NCBI GenBank assembly: GCA_016866775.1
Contig: VGLJ01000032.1
Span: 1 to 54,334 of the forward strand
Length of the DNA stretch: 54,334 nucleotides
DNA from: Candidatus Rokuibacteriota bacterium
GTDB taxonomy: Bacteria > Methylomirabilota > Methylomirabilia > Rokubacteriales > CSP1-6
Reading direction: 5' to 3'
In this document: positions 34,770 through 53,826 of the stretch, one piece after another
Layout of the letters: the number at the start of each line of letters is the position of its first letter
Numbering within the stretch: position 1 is the first letter of the stretch
Position numbers and translations under genes: made by a program
The notes under the pieces: generated by a model
Database searches by the model: none
What the model saw: the letters and a program-made list of their open reading frames with translations, nothing else
Told to the model about the DNA's origin: nothing

Positions 34770-36320
34770 GTGGTCGCCGTCGACACGATCGCGGTTCTCG
34801 ATTTCGGCGGGCAGTACACCCAGCTGATCGCGCGCCGCATCCGCGATCTCGGCGTCTACTCCGAGATCTTCCCGTGCACGAACCCGCCCGCGAATCTCCT
34901 CACCGGCGGCTACAAGGGCATCGTCCTCTCGGGCGGCCCCAACAGCGTCTACGACGCGAATGCGCCGCTCCCCGCGAAGGACATCTTCGAAGCCGGCATT
35001 CCGGTCCTCGGGATCTGTTACGGCATGCAGGCGATGGGCTACCTGCTGGGTGGCGACGTCGTGCCGTCCGATCGCCGCGAGTACGGCAAGGCGAGCGTCC
35101 ACCTCACCGGTCAGAGCCGGCTGCTCGACGGCGTGAAGCCGGAGGATGCCGGACGCGTGACGGTCTGGATGAGCCACGGCGACAGCGTGCTGAAGCCGCC
35201 GCCGGGGTTCACGGCGCTCGGGGCGACGACCAACTGCCCGGTCGCCGCGATGGCGGACGACGCGCGCAAGCTCTTCGCGGTGCAGTTCCATCCGGAGGTC
35301 GTCCACACACCGCAGGGCCGGCGGGTCTTCGAGAACTTCCTCGACATCTGCGGGGCGACCCGGACGTGGTCGATGGCGTCGTTCATCGACGACACGGTGG
35401 CGGCGACCCGCGCGAAGGTGGGCCGCGACCGCGTGCTCTGCGCGCTCTCCGGTGGCGTCGACTCCTCGGTGGTCGCGGTGCTCGTCCACCAGGCGATCGG
35501 CGACCAGCTCACGTGCGTCTTCGTCGACAACGGGCTTCTCCGCAAGGGCGAGGCCGAGGCGGTCGTCCGCACGTTCCGCGACACCTTCAGGATCAACCTC
35601 ATCCGTGTGGATGCATCCAGGCGATTTCTCGAGGCGCTCGACGGGGTGACGGACCCCGAGGTCAAGCGCAAGCGGGTGGGCGCCGAGTTCATCGCGGTCT
35701 TCCAGGACGAGGCGCAGAAGCTCGGCGCGATCCCGTGGCTGGCGCAGGGCACGCTCTATCCGGACGTGATCGAGTCGGTCTCTCACAAGGGCCCGTCGGC
35801 CACCATCAAGACGCACCACAACGTCGGCGGGCTGCCCGAGGACATGCAGTTCGGGCTCGTCGAGCCGCTGCGCGAGCTCTTCAAAGACGAGGTGCGGCGC
35901 ATCGGTGAGATCCTCGGGCTGCCCGCCGATATCGTGTGGCGCCAGCCCTTTCCCGGCCCCGGGCTCTCCATTCGCGTGCTGGGGGAGGTGACGAAAGAGC
36001 GGCTCGACGTGCTCCGCGACGCGGACGCGATCGTGCAGGACGAGATCCGGGCCGCGGGCCTCGAGCGCGAGATGTGGCAGGCGTTCGCGGTGCTGCTGCC
36101 GGTCCGTACCGTCGGCGTCATGGGCGACTTCCGCACCTACGCCAACGTCATCGCGCTGCGCGCGGTGACGAGCCTCGACGCGATGACCGCCGACTGGGCG
36201 AGGCTGCCGTACGAGCTGCTCGGCGTGATCTCGAACCGCATCATCAACGAGGTGAAGGACGTCAACCGGGTGGTGTACGACATCTCGTCGAAGCCGCCCG
36301 CGACCATCGAGTGGGAGTGA
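34770..36320 (+). CDS. guaA: GMP synthase (glutamine-hydrolysing)
   Basis: 516 residues. It converts XMP to GMP with glutamine and ATP. N-terminal class I amidotransferase: catalytic Cys in [20 protein letters not shown], His/Glu in [10 protein letters not shown]. The ATP pyrophosphatase has its P-loop in [19 protein letters not shown]. The dimerisation domain ends [20 protein letters not shown], the classical GuaA ending. GTG 34770 is chosen because it leads straight into [18 protein letters not shown]. The stop overlaps the dnaE GTG start. Confidence 0.98.
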
Positions 36321-39300
36321 CTCTGCCGGCCGACTTCGTCCACCTCCACGTGCACTCGGAATACAGCCTCCTCGACGGCGCCGCGCAGCTCGACAAGCTC
36401 GTCGCGAAGGCCAAGGCCCTCGGCTTCAAGGCGATCGCGCTCACCGACCACGGCAACCTCTTCGGCGGCATCGACTTCTACCAGGCCGCGAAGAAGGCCG
36501 AGGTCACGCCGATCCTCGGCTGCGAGCTCTACGTCGCGCCCGGCGGACGGAAGGAGCGCGGCAACCAGGACGGCGGGTACGAGGGCGCGAACCATCTCAC
36601 GGTGCTCGTGCGCAATCAGACGGGCTACAAGAACCTCATCCGGCTCGTCTCGAAGGCGTACCTCGAGGGCTTCTACTACAAGCCGCGCGTCGACAAGGAG
36701 CTCCTCGCGCAGCACGCCGACGGCCTCGTCGTGCTGTCGGGCTGCCTCAACAGCGAAGTCTCGCGGCTGATCAGCGGCGGCGAGACGGCGAAAGCGCGGC
36801 AGTCCGCGGGCTGGTACCAGGAGGTCTTCGGCAAGGACCACTACTTCATGGAGGTCCAGGCGCACGGCCTGGCCGAGCAGATCAAGGTCACGGCCGAGAC
36901 GCGCAGGATCGCGCAGGCGATCGGCGCGCCGATCGCGGGCACGAACGACTCGCACTACCTCGAAGCCGGCCACTCGCGCGCTCACGAAGCCCTCCTCTGC
37001 ATTCAAACGGGCTCCACCCTGAACGATCCGAACCGCTGGAAGTTCTCGACCGAGGAGTTCTACGTGAAGTCCGCCGAGGAGATGGCGGTGGTCTTCGCGG
37101 AGATGCCGGAGGCGTGCGCCAACACCCTGCGCGTGGCGGAGCAGTGCGACCTGAAGCTCGACTTCGGCACGTTCCACCTGCCGAAGTACACGGTGCCCGA
37201 GACCCACACGCTCAACAGCTATCTCGAGGAGCTGGCGAGGCAAGGGCTCCGCCGGCGCTACGGCCCGAGCCCGGGCGACGCGATCGAGGAGCGGTTCCGG
37301 CACGAGCTGGCGGTCATCGAGAAGATGGGATTCGCCGGCTACTTCCTGGTCGTCTGGGACTTCATCCACTACGCGCGCCAGCACGGGATCGCGGTGGGGC
37401 CGGGACGCGGCTCGTCGGCGGGCTCGCTCGTCGCCTACTGCCTCGAGATCACCAACATCGATCCGATCCGCTACCACCTCCTCTTCGAGCGATTCCTGAA
37501 CCCGGAGCGGATCTCGATGCCCGACATGGACATCGACTTCGCGGACGACCGCCGGGACGAAGTCATCAAGTACGTGGCCGAGCGCTACGGCCACGATCAC
37601 GTCGCGCACATCATCACGTTCGGGACGATGGGCGCGAAGGCCGTCATCCGGGACGTCGGCCGCGTGCTCGGCCTGCCGTTCGCCGACGTCGACCGCATCG
37701 CCAAGCTCGTCCCCGGCTTCCCGCTGAACATCACGCTCGACGACGCCTACCAGAAGTCGCCGCCCCTCGCCGAGATGGTGAAGAGCCAGCCGGCGGTGAA
37801 GGAGCTCTGGGACATCGCGCGCGCGCTCGAAGGCGGCACGCGTCACGCCTCGGTGCACGCCTCGGCGGTGGTGATCTCCGACGAGCCGCTGGACGAGTAC
37901 GTGCCGCTCTACAAGGATCCCAAGCGGCCGGAGCTGATCACCGGCTACGCGATGGGGCCGATCGAGAAGCTCGGCCTCCTGAAGATGGACTTCCTCGGCC
38001 TGCGCACGCTCACGGTGCTGGCAAACACGGCGAAGCTCCTCAAGGAGTCGCGCGGGATCGAGATCGACGTCGACGCGCTGCCGCTCGACGACGCGAAGAC
38101 GTACGCGAGCCTCGCCGAGGCGAAGACGCTCGGCGTGTTCCAGCTGGAGTCCTCCGGCATGCGCGAGGCGCTGCGCGGGCTCCGGCCCGAGCGTCTCGAA
38201 GACGTGATCGCGATGGTCTCGCTCTATCGCCCCGGCCCGATGGACCTGATCCCCGACTTCATCAACCGCAAGCACGGGCGGGCGAAGATCACGTACGAGC
38301 ATCCCGCGATGCAGAAGATCACGCAGGAAACGTACGGGATCATGATCTACCAGGAGCAGATCATGCAGATCGCGGTGGAGATGGCCGGCTTCACCATGGG
38401 CGAAGCCGACACGCTCCGCCGGGCCATGGGCAAGAAGGACCGCGAGCTCATGGCGAAGCAGAAGGAGAAGTTCCTCGCGGGCTGTGCCGAGCGCAAGACG
38501 GGAGCCGCCAAGGCCGAAAAAGTCTGGGAGCTGATGGAGAAGTTCGCGGGCTACGGATTCAACAAGTGTCTGACGGGCGACGCCCGCGTCGAGATGGCCG
38601 ACGGGACGACGAAGCCGATCGTCGACGTCCGTGACGGCGACATGGTGCTGACGAAGGACGGCCCGGCGCGCACGTCCGGCGTGCGGCCGAGCGGCGTGCG
38701 GCGGATCGTGCGCCTGCGCCTCGCCAATGGCCTGTCGATCGCGTGCACGCCCGACCACCCCGTCTTCACGCAGCGTGGCTGGGTGAACGTCGAAGCCCTC
38801 GACGTCGACACGGACGTTGTCGGGATCGCGCGCGCGCTGCCGCGCGGGAGCGAGCGCGTCCCCTCGCATCGCCCCGCGCTCCTCGGGTATGCGCTGTCCA
38901 GGCGGACGCTCGGACCCGCCGGCGAGGTCGCGCTGTCCTCGCGCTCCGGGGCGGAGATCGAGGACATGCGCGCGATCGTGGAGTGCTTCGAGAACACGGT
39001 GGCGCGGGTGGACGATGACGCCGCCGCGCGAGGCTCCGCGGTGCACCCCCTGCCGCGCGACGCCGCCGTCCCGGCGGAGGCGATCGACTTTCTCGTCCGC
39101 GAGTGTGGGCTTGGCGGGCCGAACGCCTCCGAAAAGCGCATGCCGTCGATGGTCGATCGCTGGGATCGCGACGCGCTCGCGATCCTCGCCGCCAAGCTCT
39201 TCCAGGCGGACGGCTGTATCCACGTGAAGAGCCGCGCGGTCTCGTATGCGACCACGTCCGGGGAGCTCGCGACCGACGTGCGTCGGCTGCTGCTGAAGCT

Positions 39301-41071
39301 GGGCATCCTGTCGACCATCCACCAGCAGGACTGCGCGTCGTGCGGCGGGAAGCGTCGCAGCTACACGGTCACGATCGCCGACGACGCCGACGCGCGCGGC
39401 CGCTTCAGGGCCCTGGTGGGCCCGCACCTGGCGCCGAGCAAGGCGGCCGCGCTCGCCGAGCTGGCGGCCGTCGAAGGCACGCCGGGCCGAAAGCCGGGCC
39501 CGGGCGGCGGCGATTTCATTCCGTCGCAGCTGTTCCTCGACGAGCTGCGCCGCGCGATCCTGAAGCGGTTCTCCACGCTGCGCGAGGGGCTGCAGGCCCT
39601 GGAGCTCGGCGTGACCGCGCTCAGCGGCAAGCGCCGGCGGGAGGGCATGCGCCGGGACAGGCTCGCGGGCATCGCGCGGCACCTCGACGACCCCGGCCTT
39701 CAGGCCCTCGCGGATTCCCCGCTCGCGTGGTCTCGGCCCGGCGCCGTCGAGATCCTCGGCGAAGAGCCCACGTACGACATCGAAGTGCCCGGGCCGGCGA
39801 GCTTCGTCGCCAACGGGATCGTCGTCCACAACTCGCACGCGGCGGCGTACGCGCTCGTCGCCTATGAGACGGCGTACTTCAAGGCGAACTACCCCGTCGA
39901 GTTCATGACGGCGCTGCTGACGTCGGAAATGGGCGACACCGACAAGATCGTGAAGTACATCGAAGAGTGCCGCGCCATGGGCGTGGAGGTGAAGCCGCCC
40001 GACGTCAACGGCTCGTCGGTGCAGTTCAGCGTCCACGCCGACACGATCCGGTTCGGCCTCGCGGCGCTCAAGAACGTCGGCGAGGCGGCGATGGAGTCGA
40101 TCCTCAAGACGCGCGCCGCCGACGGCTCGTTCACCACGCTCGAGGACTTCTGCGCGCGTGTCGACCTCCGGCTCGTCAATCGGCGCGTCGTGGAGAGCCT
40201 CATCAAGGCCGGCGCGTTCGATTCCGTCGGGGTCGCGCGCGCCCAGCTCCTGGCGACGCTCGATGCGGCGATGGAGAGCGGGCAGCGGCAGCAGCGCGAC
40301 AAGGCGGAAGGGCAGGCGTCGTTCTTCGACATGCTGCCCGCGGCCGCGCCTCCGCCGGTGCGCGCGGTGGACGCGGCGTCCGTCCCCGAGTGGGATGACG
40401 ACCAGCGCCTGGCGTTCGAGAAGGAAGTGCTCGGCTTCTACGTGTCCGGCCACCCGCTCGCGCGCTTCAGGCCGCTCGTCGAATCGCTCGGCATCACGTC
40501 GTCGTCCGAGCTCGCCGCGCGGCCCGGCGGCAGCCGCGTGCTGCTGTTCGGTCAGGTCGCGAGCCTCCGCGAGATCCCGACCAAGAGCGGCAACCGCATG
40601 GCGTTCGCGACCATCGAGGACACCGACGGCACCGTCGACGTCACGATCTTCCCGGAGCCGTTCAAGGCGGGCGCCGCGCTGCTCCGGTCGCGCGACGCGC
40701 TGCTGATCCGCGGCAAGGTCGACGACACGGAGAAGGGACGAGTGGTGCTCGCCGAGGAAGTGCGCCTGCTCGAGCACGCGCTGGGCGGCGGCCCGAGCCG
40801 AGGCTCGAACGGCGGCGGCGGCGCGCCGAACGCGTGCCGCGTGCGGATCCCCGGCGACGGCGACATCGGCGCGATGCTGAGCGGCGTGCGCCGCGTCTGC
40901 GGCGAGCACGCGGGCGGCGTGCCGCTCTTCGTGCACGTCCTGGTACCGTCGCTCGAAGTGGTGGTGCGCGCCGCCGCGGTGTCGGTCGACGGCAGCGCGG
41001 AGCTGGCGGCGAAGATCGACGCGCTCCTCGGTGCGGGCGCGTGCACGGTGGAGCATGCCGGACGGGCTTGA
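36317..41071 (+). CDS. dnaE: DNA polymerase III alpha subunit with intein
   Basis: 1584 residues as encoded; about 1162 after removal of the 422-residue intein, the usual DnaE size. It is the replicative polymerase catalytic subunit. The N-terminal PHP domain (residues about 5-200) opens [14 protein letters not shown] with its metal-binding His pattern kept. The polymerase carries catalytic Asp403 and Asp405 in [15 protein letters not shown], and [16 protein letters not shown] before it. Fingers, a helix-hairpin-helix and beta-binding region, an OB fold ([20 protein letters not shown]) and the tail follow. The intein splits GYGFNK from [12 protein letters not shown], one of the most conserved parts. 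GTG 36317 overlaps the guaA stop; dnaE-accA order matches E. coli. Confidence 0.97.
38567..39832 (+). mobile_element. Intein in DnaE with degenerate LAGLIDADG endonuclease
   Basis: 422 codons in frame, dnaE residues 751-1172. Splice block A is [18 protein letters not shown] (Cys1), block B is [19 protein letters not shown] with the TxxH pattern, and block F/G is [21 protein letters not shown] in substance, ending His-Asn before extein Ser+1. The splicing residues Cys1, His, Asn and Ser+1 are all intact, so self-removal is expected. A DOD endonuclease region lies between. Its second motif ([14 protein letters not shown]) keeps the acidic residue. The first, [12 protein letters not shown], has Arg-Arg where Asp-Gly is expected, so the nuclease is probably dead. 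Base composition matches the host, suggesting long residence. Confidence 0.93.
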
Positions 41072-47989: not shown

Positions 47990-48318
47990 GCGGGACGCGC
48001 AGCGAAGGGCTCCGGCGGGTCGAGAAGGAGATCGCGAGCGAGAAGGCCGCCGCGCTCGGCCGGGCGGGGGAACGCCTCGAGGCGGCGCTGGCCGAGACGC
48101 GTGACCTCGGCGCGCGCCTGCTCGGAACGCACGACGCGGCGGAGCGCGAGCGTCTGGCCGAGGCGTACGCGAGCGCGCGGCGACGCGCGCTGCAGGCGCG
48201 GATGGCGCTGCTGATCCAGCGTGAGGCGCTCGGGCTCCGACGTCACGCCACCGTCGATCAGCAGTTCCCCGAGCCGCCGTCGGTCGCCGACCTGTTGCGC
48301 CGGGCGGGACGCGCGTGA
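47986..48318 (+). CDS. Helical protein of unknown function
   Basis: 110 residues, Arg/Ala/Glu-rich and almost wholly helical (LRRVEKEIASEKAAALGRAG, LAEAYASARRRALQARMALL), probably a coiled coil. The tail HATVDQQFPEPPSVADLLRR is extended. Not recognised. It is coupled on both sides: ATGA with the gene before and GTGA with the phenylacetate-CoA ligase gene after, so the three are made together. Confidence 0.65.
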   Translation: MSGTRSEGLRRVEKEIASEKAAALGRAGERLEAALAETRDLGARLLGTHDAAERERLAEAYASARRRALQARMALLIQREALGLRRHATVDQQFPEPPSVADLLRRAGRA

Positions 48319-49616
48319 TCTGGAACGAAGCGGCGGAGACGATGCCGATCGCCGCGCGCCGCGCGCTCCAGCTCGAGCGGCTGCGCGAGTCCGTGCGGTG
48401 GACGGTCGATCGGGTCGCCGTGATGCGCGAGCGCGTCGGCGACCCGAAGCTGCGCGGCCTCGACGATCTCGCCTCGCTCCCGTTCACGCACAAGAGCGAC
48501 CTGCGCGAGCACTATCCGTTCGGCCTCTTCGCGGTGCCGCGCGACGAGCTCGTGCGCATCCACGCGTCGTCGGGCACGAAGGGCAAGCCGACGGTCGTCG
48601 GCTACACCGGGGGCGATCTCGACATCTGGCGCGACGTGATGGCGCGCCTGATGGTCGCGGCGGGTGCCCGGCCCGGCCACATGCTGCACGTGGCGTTCGG
48701 CTACGGGCTCTTCACCGGTGGCCTCGGCTTTCACGACGGCGCCGAGCGCATCGGCATGACCGTCGTGCCCGTGTCGTCCGGCAACACCGCACGCCACCAG
48801 CTCCTGCTCCAGGACTTCCGCCCGGACGGGCTGTGCGGGACGCCGTCGTTCGTCTTGCACGTCGCGGAAACGCTGCGTGCCGCCGGCGGCCGGCCGGAGA
48901 CGCTCGGCATCCGCTACGGCATGTTCGGCGCGGAGCCGTGGACGGACGCGATGCGCGCGGCGCTCGAGCGCGAGTGGGGCTGCCCGGCGTACGACATCTA
49001 CGGCCTGTCGGAGATCATCGGGCCCGGCGTGGCAGGCGAGTGCGAGGCGCGCGACGGGCTGCACGTGATGGACGATCACTTCCTGCCGGAGATCGTCGAT
49101 CCCGCCTCCGGCGCGCCGCGGGCGGAAGGCGAGGAAGGGGAGCTCGTCCTCACCACGCTGACCAAGCGCGCGCTCCCGATGCTGCGTTATCGCACCGGCG
49201 ATATCTCCGCGCTCACGACGGAGCCGTGCCGCTGCGGCCGCACCTCGGCGCGCATCGCGCGCCTCAAGGGCCGCGCCGACGACATGCTCGTCATCAAGGG
49301 CGTGAACGTCTTTCCGTCGGAGGTCGAGGCCGCGCTGCTGTCGGTCACCGAGGTGGAGCCGCACTATCAGCTCGTGGTCGACCGCCGCGCGACGCTCGCG
49401 CGCGTCGAGGTGCACGTCGAGCCGGCGCCGGCGCTGCTCTCCCGCTGCGGCGGCGCGTTCTCGGAGAACCACCCCGCAGTGGAGACTCTTCGCCGTCACG
49501 TGGGCGAACGGCTGCGCGTCGCGCTCGGTCTCAGCGTGGAGGTCCGCCTGGTGGCGCCACAGTCGATTCCCCGATCGGAAGGGAAGGCGGTCCGGGTTCG
49601 CCTCCTGGTCGACTGA
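48315..49616 (+). CDS. paaK: Phenylacetate-CoA ligase
   Basis: 433 residues. An adenylate-forming enzyme that activates phenylacetate (or a similar aryl acid) with ATP and CoA. Motifs: P-loop HASSGTKGKPTVVGYT, YDIYGLSEIIGPGVAGECEA, the hinge region MLRYRTGDISALTTEPCRCG and RIARLKGRADDMLVIKGVNV. The C-terminal domain ends with IPRSEGKAVRVRLLVD. No other paa genes are nearby, so the natural substrate may differ. It begins with GTG overlapping the previous stop. Confidence 0.92.
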   Translation: MIWNEAAETMPIAARRALQLERLRESVRWTVDRVAVMRERVGDPKLRGLDDLASLPFTHKSDLREHYPFGLFAVPRDELVRIHASSGTKGKPTVVGYTGGDLDIWRDVMARLMVAAGARPGHMLHVAFGYGLFTGGLGFHDGAERIGMTVVPVSSGNTARHQLLLQDFRPDGLCGTPSFVLHVAETLRAAGGRPETLGIRYGMFGAEPWTDAMRAALEREWGCPAYDIYGLSEIIGPGVAGECEARDGLHVMDDHFLPEIVDPASGAPRAEGEEGELVLTTLTKRALPMLRYRTGDISALTTEPCRCGRTSARIARLKGRADDMLVIKGVNVFPSEVEAALLSVTEVEPHYQLVVDRRATLARVEVHVEPAPALLSRCGGAFSENHPAVETLRRHVGERLRVALGLSVEVRLVAPQSIPRSEGKAVRVRLLVD

Positions 49617-49631
49617 GGTACGATCCCGCCC

Positions 49632-49960
49632 ATGACAGGACTCCGGTTCGGCCAGCCCGCTCCCGATTTCAAGCTCCCGGCGACGGGCGGCACCGAAATC
49701 CAGCTCTCGGCACTTCGCGGCAAGGACGCGGTCCTGGTCTTTTATTGCTACGACTGGGGCAGCATCTGAACGCCTGAGCTGGGCGGCCTGGGACAGGTCG
49801 CCTGGACGAGGACCGCAACGTCGCCTGGCGCTCGACCTTCGTGGTGGATCGCGACGGCACCCTCCGCTGGGGCCAGGCCGGCGACCGTCTGATGGTGCGC
49901 GACGGCTCGGAGGTCCTGCGCGTCCTGGACGTGATCGAGTCGTCGCGCGCGAAGAAGTAG
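49632..49960 (+). pseudogene. Peroxiredoxin (AhpC/TSA), internally deleted, TGA at the peroxidatic position
   Basis: The N-terminal third is intact from ATG 49632: LRFGQPAPDFKLPATGGTEI and DAVLVFYCYDWGSI. TGA then occurs at 49767-49769, exactly where the peroxidatic Cys is expected (GSI-x-TPEL). About 12 residues later the normal middle of the domain (roughly 80 residues) is missing and a typical C-terminus resumes in another frame (49799-49960): RNVAWRSTFVVDRDGTLRWG then DGSEVLRVLDVI. A hairpin at 49782-49802 has the layout of a bacterial selenocysteine insertion element. So this may be a Sec-peroxiredoxin whose middle was lost in nature or in assembly, or simply a decayed gene with a nonsense mutation. 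Confidence 0.7.
49782..49802 (+). promoter_or_regulatory. bSECIS-like hairpin after the peroxiredoxin TGA
   Basis: GGCGGCCTG pairs with CAGGTCGCC (nine pairs, one G-U) around loop GGA. The stem begins 13 bases after TGA and the loop lies about 22-24 bases after it. Bacterial SECIS elements have a stem with a small apical loop bearing an early G, some 16-37 bases after UGA. The right arm coincides with the deletion edge, so part of it may be accidental. Confidence 0.4.
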
Positions 49961-52181: not shown

Positions 52182-53826
52182 CTAGCGCGCCAGACGAAGC
52201 ATCGCGAGCGCTCGCGCGGCGAGGTCGTAGCGCTCGCCGCCCTTCAACGCGCGGTGACGGCGCCGGCCGTTCGCCGTGCGCGTATCGAGCACGACGTCCC
52301 AGGACGCGCCACGCCGGTGTGCCGGCAGCACGAAGTCGATCGGCTCGCGATAGGCGTTCACCAGGAGCATCAGCGTGTCGTCCATGATCGCCTGGCCCTG
52401 CGGGTCCACGTCCGCGATCGCATCGCCCGCGAGCCGGAGGCCGAAGCAGCGCGTGAACCCGTTGCTCCAGTCCTCGTCGGTCATCTCGTGGCCGTCGGGG
52501 CGGAACCACGAGAGGTCCTTGACCTCCGAGCCGCGGATGCGCCGCCCGAAGAAGAACTTCTGCCGGCGCAGCACGGGATGCCGTCGCCGGAGCGCGATCA
52601 CGTAGCGGACGAACTCCAGCAGCTCGCGGTCGGGACCATCGAGCTTCCAGTCGAGCCACGAGAGCTCGTTGTCCTGGCAATAGGCGTTGTTGTTGCCCTG
52701 CTGCGTGCGCCCGATCTCGTCGCCGCCGGTCAGCATCGGCACGCCCTGCGAGAGGAGCAGCGTGGCGAGGAAGTTCCGCCGCTGCCGCCGCCCGCCTGCC
52801 CCTCGTCGCCCTTCCAGAAGGCGCGCACGGTGTCGCGATCGATGCCGTTCCACTCCGCCCACAGCACGGGAAAGTTGCCGACCTGGTAGCCGCCCTCACC
52901 CGGATCCCACGGCTCGGCGATGAGCTTGACCTGCGAGATGACGGGATCCTGGCCGCAGGCTGTCCATGATGAGCTGCAGCGTCCGCGGGTGCGTCATGTT
53001 CAGGGTGTTGCCGCACCCGGTGTAGTCCATGTAGTAACGCCGGTCGTCGGGCATCAGCCGGTGGTACGCGGCGTTGTCGATGCCCCGGAACGACAGCGTG
53101 GGCCCGAGATGGTTGCCCTCCGCGGCGTGGCTGTAGACGACGTCGAGGACGACTTCGATGCCAGCTTCGTGTAACGCTTTGACCATGGTCTTGAACTCGC
53201 GGACCTGGTCGCCGGGCCCTGACGGCCGTCACGCCGAGGGCCTTGAGATAGTCGAGCGCGGCGGGCGCCACGACACCTCCATAGGCGCCGCGCAGCTCCC
53301 TGGCCACGTCGGGATGCCGCTGCGTGAAGCCCTTGACGTGCATCTCGTAGATCACGCTCTCGCTCCACGGGATGCGCGGCGGGCGATCGTCGCCCCACGT
53401 GAACGCGGTATCGACCACGACGGCCTTCGGCATCCCGGGCGCGCTGTCGCGCTCGTCGCGCGCGAGATCGGCGTCGCGATGGCCGATCGTGTAGCCGAAG
53501 AGCGCGTCGCTCCACGGCACCGTCCCGGTGATCGCGTGCGCGTACGGATCGAGGAGGAGCTTGGCGGGATTGAATCGGTGCCCGGCCGCCGGTTCGAACG
53601 GCCCGTGCACCCGATACCCATAGCGGAGACCGGGACGCGCCGGCGGAAGGTACACGTGCCACACTTGGTCCGTGCGCTCCGTCATCGACACGCGACGCTC
53701 GCGGTCGTCTTCGTCGTAGAGACAGAGCTCGACGCCGGTGGCGTTCTCGGAGAAGAGCGCGAAGTTGACGCCGGAGCCGTCCCACGTCGCGCCGAGCGGA
53801 TAGGAGTTGCCGGGCCGCGTTCTCAT
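52182..53826 (-). pseudogene. glgX: Glycogen debranching enzyme GlgX with three internal gaps
   Basis: Four well-preserved GlgX segments lie in order but in changing frames. Segment 1 (53826 to about 53221) has the N-terminal CBM48 domain (RPGNSYPLGATWDGSGVNFA) and SESVIYEMHVKGFTQRHPDV. Segment 2 (about 53219-52953) has [20 protein letters not shown] and GH13 region I. Segment 3 (about 52950-52797) has [20 protein letters not shown]. Segment 4 (about 52790-52182) has [20 protein letters not shown] to the end. About 170 of some 700 residues are missing, including the region with the catalytic Asp (GFRFD) and region IV. As written it cannot work. The retained parts show no point decay, which suggests recent deletion or an assembly fault. 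Confidence 0.85.

Follow-up and report, generated by a model that had tools for sequence, protein, structure and literature searches.

The stretch of DNA analysed here, called the window throughout, is 54,334 nucleotides long and constitutes contig 32 of a Rokubacteria genome (5.13 Mb in 159 contigs, 97.5% complete). Near its end an AMP-binding gene resembling phenylacetate-CoA ligases (48315–49616, forward strand; PF14535, PF00501) stops 15 nt before the start of a peroxiredoxin-like gene on the same strand, a gene order also found in the relative L070. The N-terminal half of the peroxiredoxin-like gene (49632–49766) begins with the ATG at 49632, runs for 45 codons in the frame MTGLRFGQPAPDFKLPATGGTEIQLSALRGKDAVLVFYCYDWGSI up to the CxxxGxx of the active site, and there meets a TGA at 49767–49769. 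It is recognised by the Pfam AhpC-TSA profile (E 2.8e-11; 43.9 bits against PF00578 for this half alone). Behind the TGA the same frame continues as TPELGGLGQVA and runs into a hairpin at 49782–49802. The C-terminal half (49802–49960, forward strand) is an open frame, LDEDRNVAWRSTFVVDRDG...AKK, that carries a conserved arginine and a WGQAGDR motif. It starts with LDEDRNVAWRSTFVV, ends with the TAG at 49958–49960 and has the sequence LDEDRNVAWRSTFVVDRDGTLRWGQAGDRLMVRDGSEVLRVLDVIESSRAKK, read in a frame different from that of the N-terminal half. Further upstream in the window, a 1582-codon ORF resembling DNA polymerase III alpha (36311–41056, forward strand) contains an intein-like in-frame insertion of about 416 residues that is absent from its orthologues in G012 and G031.

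Both halves match the same family. The N-terminal half shares 54–70% identity with intact orthologues, with one TGA, and the C-terminal half shares 64–80% with their C-terminal halves, while its Pfam match is a weak one to the end of the AhpC-TSA profile. What separates the two is a junction at 49801/49802, where global alignments to each of L013, L014, L021 and L071 show the window to be short of exactly 145 bp, that is 48 codons plus one base, which shifts the frame. An earlier sequence-only reading of this locus had placed an in-frame TGA at the peroxidatic position, described the middle of the domain as missing and the C-terminus as out of frame, and regarded the copy as non-functional as written; its coordinates are correct, and the alignments put a precise length on the gap it had noticed. 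Is the TGA then a stop codon, or does it encode selenocysteine (Sec)?

The orthologues speak plainly on this point. In 95 genomes of the phylum, a search based on aligned intact orthologues returned 35 full-length matches, all in the family of the window, and every match has an in-frame TGA; no full-length match came from the window genome, whose own copy is broken. After removal of duplicates, 32 distinct intact genes were left among the fetched loci. TGA stands at the site in every one of them, with the hairpin behind it, and a Cys codon in none, so that relatives with plain Cys, for which the sequence-only reading had proposed to look, are not found in this set. A pattern scan across 84,980 species used two patterns, one of them the Cys-coded active-site peptide, and yielded 27 loci from Rokubacteria only, with TGA at every locus whose sequence is readable at the site (L086 is partial); the scan requires near-exact peptides, and more distant Cys forms could escape it. 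All named relatives that carry the gene are Candidatus Rokubacteria or Rokuibacteriota MAGs. The family is apparently restricted to Rokubacteria, with Sec wherever the site can be read. In a maximum-likelihood tree L013 is the nearest row to the window, with moderate support (86/72). In one group of relatives (L061, 3479–5762, and about ten further loci) genes for a MoxR-type AAA ATPase and a DUF58 protein come directly after the gene, which points to a shared operon. Other neighbours are found elsewhere, and with the MoxR/DUF58 pair present in about 11 relatives the gene neighbourhood is uninformative on function.

In bacterial Sec decoding, SelB together with Sec-tRNA binds a hairpin and inserts Sec at a UGA. 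The hairpin in the window consists of two arms, 49782–49790 and 49794–49802, that enclose the loop GGA at 49791–49793, and reads GGCGGCCTG(GGA)CAGGTCGCC with nine pairs, one of which is G-U. It begins 12 nt past the TGA, its loop lies 21 nt past it, and the 27-nt hairpin stretch has a folding energy of -19.1 kcal/mol. The published model of bacterial SECIS elements (PMC13188914) describes an upper stem of 4–16 bp, an apical loop of 3–9 nt with a G in its first two positions, a distance from UGA to loop of 16–37 nt and a minimum free energy of at most -7.5 kcal/mol. With 9 bp, GGA, 21 nt and -19.1 kcal/mol the window hairpin lies within all of these limits, which confirms the nine-pair, GGA-looped element of SECIS geometry described from the sequence alone. 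An Rfam scan of the locus gave no match to a SECIS family and a single chance match.

Taken by itself, the hairpin of the window is only mildly unusual (z = -1.0 against dinucleotide shuffles of a 69-nt stretch; p = 0.023 against synonymous recoding). The family offers a sharper view, as the 32 orthologues and the window provide 33 sequences for comparison. The six inner pairs, from C-G (49784:49800) to U-A/U-G (49789:49795), form in 33/33, and the first loop base is G in all of them, with GG in 28. Pair 49786:49798 occurs as A-U (24), G-U (5) or G-C (4), and pair 49790:49794 as G-C (19), C-G (11) or unpaired (3); the arms thus show compensatory changes of both the A-U/G-C and the G-C/C-G type. 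The mean folding energy is -13.8 kcal/mol compared to -9.9 kcal/mol for synonymous recodings (standard deviation of the mean 0.49). The covariation score reaches 0.237 against 0.154 with shuffled partners, a value attained by 0/500 shuffles and lost when the partner is slid by one to three bases, with the qualification that the orthologues are related, so that covariation counts are inflated and do not represent independent events. Paired second codon positions even force linked amino acid changes, Asp..Val versus Gly..Ala, a coupling for which protein constraint alone is not obviously the cause. At the level of the family, the recoding energies and the covariation reject a chance hairpin.

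The machinery to read such an element is encoded in the same genome. A tRNA-Sec with anticodon tca (70 bits) is present, SelA (E 3.7e-151) and SelB (E 1e-113) are clustered on contig 43, and SelD (E 4.6e-100) is found on contig 31; the four components that the sequence-only reading had suggested to look for are all there. This SelD (L050, 24695–25639 of contig 31) itself has a single in-frame TGA, a feature shared with SelD selenoproteins. Two further Sec-containing peroxiredoxin-like genes, L056 with the motif WUPFC and L057 with WUPYC, lie on contigs 25 and 7. More broadly, SelA is detected in 31/35 genomes that bear the gene and in 51/57 genomes of the family; for the four gene-bearing genomes in which it was not found (G021, G031, G032, G081), incomplete assembly is perhaps the cause. 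The locus combines two features of bacterial selenoprotein genes, an in-frame UGA at the redox Cys of homologues and a genome with tRNA-Sec, SelA, SelB and SelD.

A sceptic could read the TGA as an ordinary stop or a decay mutation in the pseudogene of a Cys peroxiredoxin, with a hairpin that arose by chance in GC-rich sequence. The window copy is indeed broken by a frameshifting deletion, the window has a GC content of 70%, and its lone hairpin is only slightly better than shuffles. Yet the same TGA and hairpin recur in 32/32 distinct intact orthologues, which already refute such a stop; the hairpin is kept with compensatory changes, and the genome holds the Sec machinery. We regard this explanation as extremely improbable, and an old pseudogene with a random TGA is ruled out by the TGA of the intact orthologues. 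Because TGA is present in all of these orthologues, is accompanied by a conserved hairpin with compensatory changes and occurs alongside the Sec machinery, we take it to be a selenocysteine codon. With high confidence, then, the locus holds one gene in two out-of-frame halves that encodes a Sec-containing protein of the peroxiredoxin fold, with the UGA at 49767–49769 as its Sec codon, a SECIS hairpin behind it and 145 bp absent. The earlier proposal of a Sec peroxiredoxin is supported by orthologues, hairpin and machinery alike, whereas peroxidase activity is something that we infer.

What kind of protein would the intact gene produce? An intact orthologue matches PF00578 with E 3.8e-34 and 117.7 bits, compared to a gathering score of 26, which places it in the AhpC/TSA fold. 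AlphaFold2 on 29 orthologues gives a pLDDT of 86.7 and a pTM of 0.86, and Foldseek with the predicted structure retrieves Prx2, Prx1 and AhpE at TM 0.82–0.92. The best sequence matches of known structure are AhpE entries (E about 2e-26). The catalytic arginine, R116, is invariant in alignments A3 and A4, where it aligns with the AhpE arginine, and it is retained in the C-terminal half of the window. The active site itself departs from the canonical PxxxT/SxxC: the window and 32/32 orthologues read CxxxGxxU, with Cys replacing Pro seven residues before the Sec and Gly replacing Thr or Ser three residues before it. Pro at -7 and Ser at -3 are retained in four homologues found in plasmid records, each of which has Cys at the site. 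NCBIfam scores fall far below the curated peroxiredoxin cut-offs, and for the PrxU equivalog NF040737 an intact orthologue attains 61.1 bits of the 270 that mark membership.

These replacements bear directly on function. The Pro and the Thr/Ser are held essential in peroxiredoxins, and since CxxxGxxU has neither, a peroxidase function is not assured. In the cycle that we picture for the intact enzyme, a Sec selenolate activated by the conserved arginine would attack and reduce peroxide, or engage in thiol exchange, and the invariant Cys(-7) may then form a selenenylsulfide with the oxidised Sec and so resolve it. The Pro of the peroxiredoxin fold packs beside the peroxidatic residue, which makes a Cys in its place a plausible resolving thiol. 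We tentatively propose, as a possibility that we would not yet call probable, that Rokubacteria possess a distinct class of peroxiredoxin-fold selenoenzymes, in which Pro has given way to Cys at -7 and Thr/Ser to Gly at -3, and in which Cys(-7) acts inside the active site as the resolving residue for the oxidised Sec. If true, this would be an obligate selenoenzyme, as no Cys form is known, with an unusual catalytic cycle. The intact protein might instead belong to the thiol:disulfide-type oxidoreductases or have some other redox activity, with its peroxiredoxin scaffold employing the Cys(-7)/Sec pair for something other than peroxide reduction. The Gly at -3 and Cys at -7 in 32/32 orthologues point this way, as does the retention of Pro and Ser in the nearest Cys homologues examined. 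The fold, the conserved arginine and the existence of a CxxxTxxU protein (L121) that keeps the Thr suggest descent from peroxide-reducing enzymes, however, and Sec may offset the loss of the Thr. On balance we consider a non-peroxidase function rather unlikely, although it deserves to be kept in mind.

The break in the window copy poses a separate question. As assembled, the gene would give an 86-residue protein upon Sec insertion, off frame after about residue 57 and ending at an early stop, or a 45-residue peptide upon termination at the UGA, and neither product could form the complete fold. The gap opens at the 3' foot of the hairpin, to within about one base. It is accompanied by damage in glgX (glycogen debranching enzyme; 52182–53826, reverse strand), which lies in several frames and shows three deletions of 113–122, 110 and 241 bp compared to intact relatives. 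In total four deletions of 110–241 bp fall within 3.4 kb, and no nonsense point mutation is seen in the remaining parts. The halves of the peroxiredoxin-like gene have a pN/pS of about 0.1–0.5 against the orthologues, as if under purifying selection, and have therefore not drifted for long. Some simple causes can be set aside: the last 6 kb contain no exact repeat of at least 15 bp, so repeats do not explain the junctions and the collapse of a long repeat during assembly is ruled out. Extreme GC content is likewise no uniform cause, as the missing segments, measured in relatives, have 77% GC for the peroxiredoxin piece and merely 64–67% for the glgX pieces.

Has this lineage, then, genuinely and recently lost the enzyme, so that the remnant of a real selenoprotein gene is now a young pseudogene? 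Such a loss would agree with the failure to find another, intact copy although the genome is 97.5% complete, with the damage to glgX on this contig, which a decaying region would lead one to expect, and with a junction at which no long repeat accounts for an assembler error. Moreover, replication slippage is known to occur at the feet of strong hairpins, and it is at such a foot that the deletion begins. Against this stands the pattern of the damage, with four deletions so close together and no nonsense point mutation in what remains. The surroundings count against it too: syntenic genes at 32–49 kb match G012, G031 and G021 without internal deletions, and the genes at 50.1–52 kb between the two broken ones (TPR, bactofilin and Rieske) match relatives in the same manner. 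In addition, L016, a contig of the MAG GWA2_70_23, has 207 consecutive N across the N-terminal half of its own copy of the gene, and the region seems hard to assemble. A genuine deletion is in our view conceivable and not far-fetched, though we lean away from it. Because the four clean deletions lie within 3.4 kb and nonsense mutations are missing, we favour a fault in the local assembly, or else a loss that happened very recently, over an old pseudogene. The window copy is of interest chiefly as a warning that assembled GC-rich genomes may contain such deletions.

The raw sequence nonetheless confirms a selenoprotein family whose genes standard callers would truncate at the UGA. It looks like a Rokubacteria-restricted Sec variant of the peroxiredoxin fold with the signature CxxxGxxU. 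With Sec for Cys and Gly for the Thr/Ser that has long been regarded as essential to peroxide activation, it would permit a direct test of what an enzyme gains from selenium. Rokubacteria belong to or near the phylum Methylomirabilota. A genome of that phylum has been predicted to encode 63 selenoproteins (PMC13188914), and the CxxxGxxU family may be part of this unusually large selenoproteome. CxxxGxxU does not appear in the 119-entry inventory of the same review, and peroxiredoxins are absent from the deep-Sep paper.

How does the family relate to known systems? PrxU of the Eubacterium acidaminophilum type, listed as 'Peroxiredoxin TxxU' (PMC13188914; NF040737), shares the PF00578 fold, the peroxidatic Sec and a SECIS element directly after the UGA. 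It differs in having PxxxTxxU in place of CxxxGxxU, and the latter has so far been found in Rokubacteria only. The one-Cys peroxiredoxin AhpE of Mycobacterium tuberculosis (PDB 4x0x, 1xvw) superimposes with TM 0.83 and an aligned catalytic arginine; its active site reads FFPLAFTGIC, with Pro at -7, Thr at -3 and Cys, in contrast to FYCYDWGSIU here. Peroxiredoxin-like thiol:disulfide oxidoreductases with UxxC or UxxU, represented in the same genome by L056 and L057, combine Sec with the same PF00578 scaffold, whereas the UTPE of the present family has neither Cys nor Sec three residues past the Sec. The phylum also holds other Sec peroxiredoxin-like families (L117–L121), with active sites such as FYPFDWSPGU, GDFLPAU or GDFLRAU, and FYCLDWTPGU; FYCLDWTPGU combines Cys at -7 with Thr at -3. 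Among these, L117 and L118 (PxxxSxxU) and L121 (CxxxTxxU) are of the same class, with Sec at the same column and, in L121, also Cys at -7; they share about 40% identity with the family of the window and keep Ser or Thr at -3, where the family described here has Gly.
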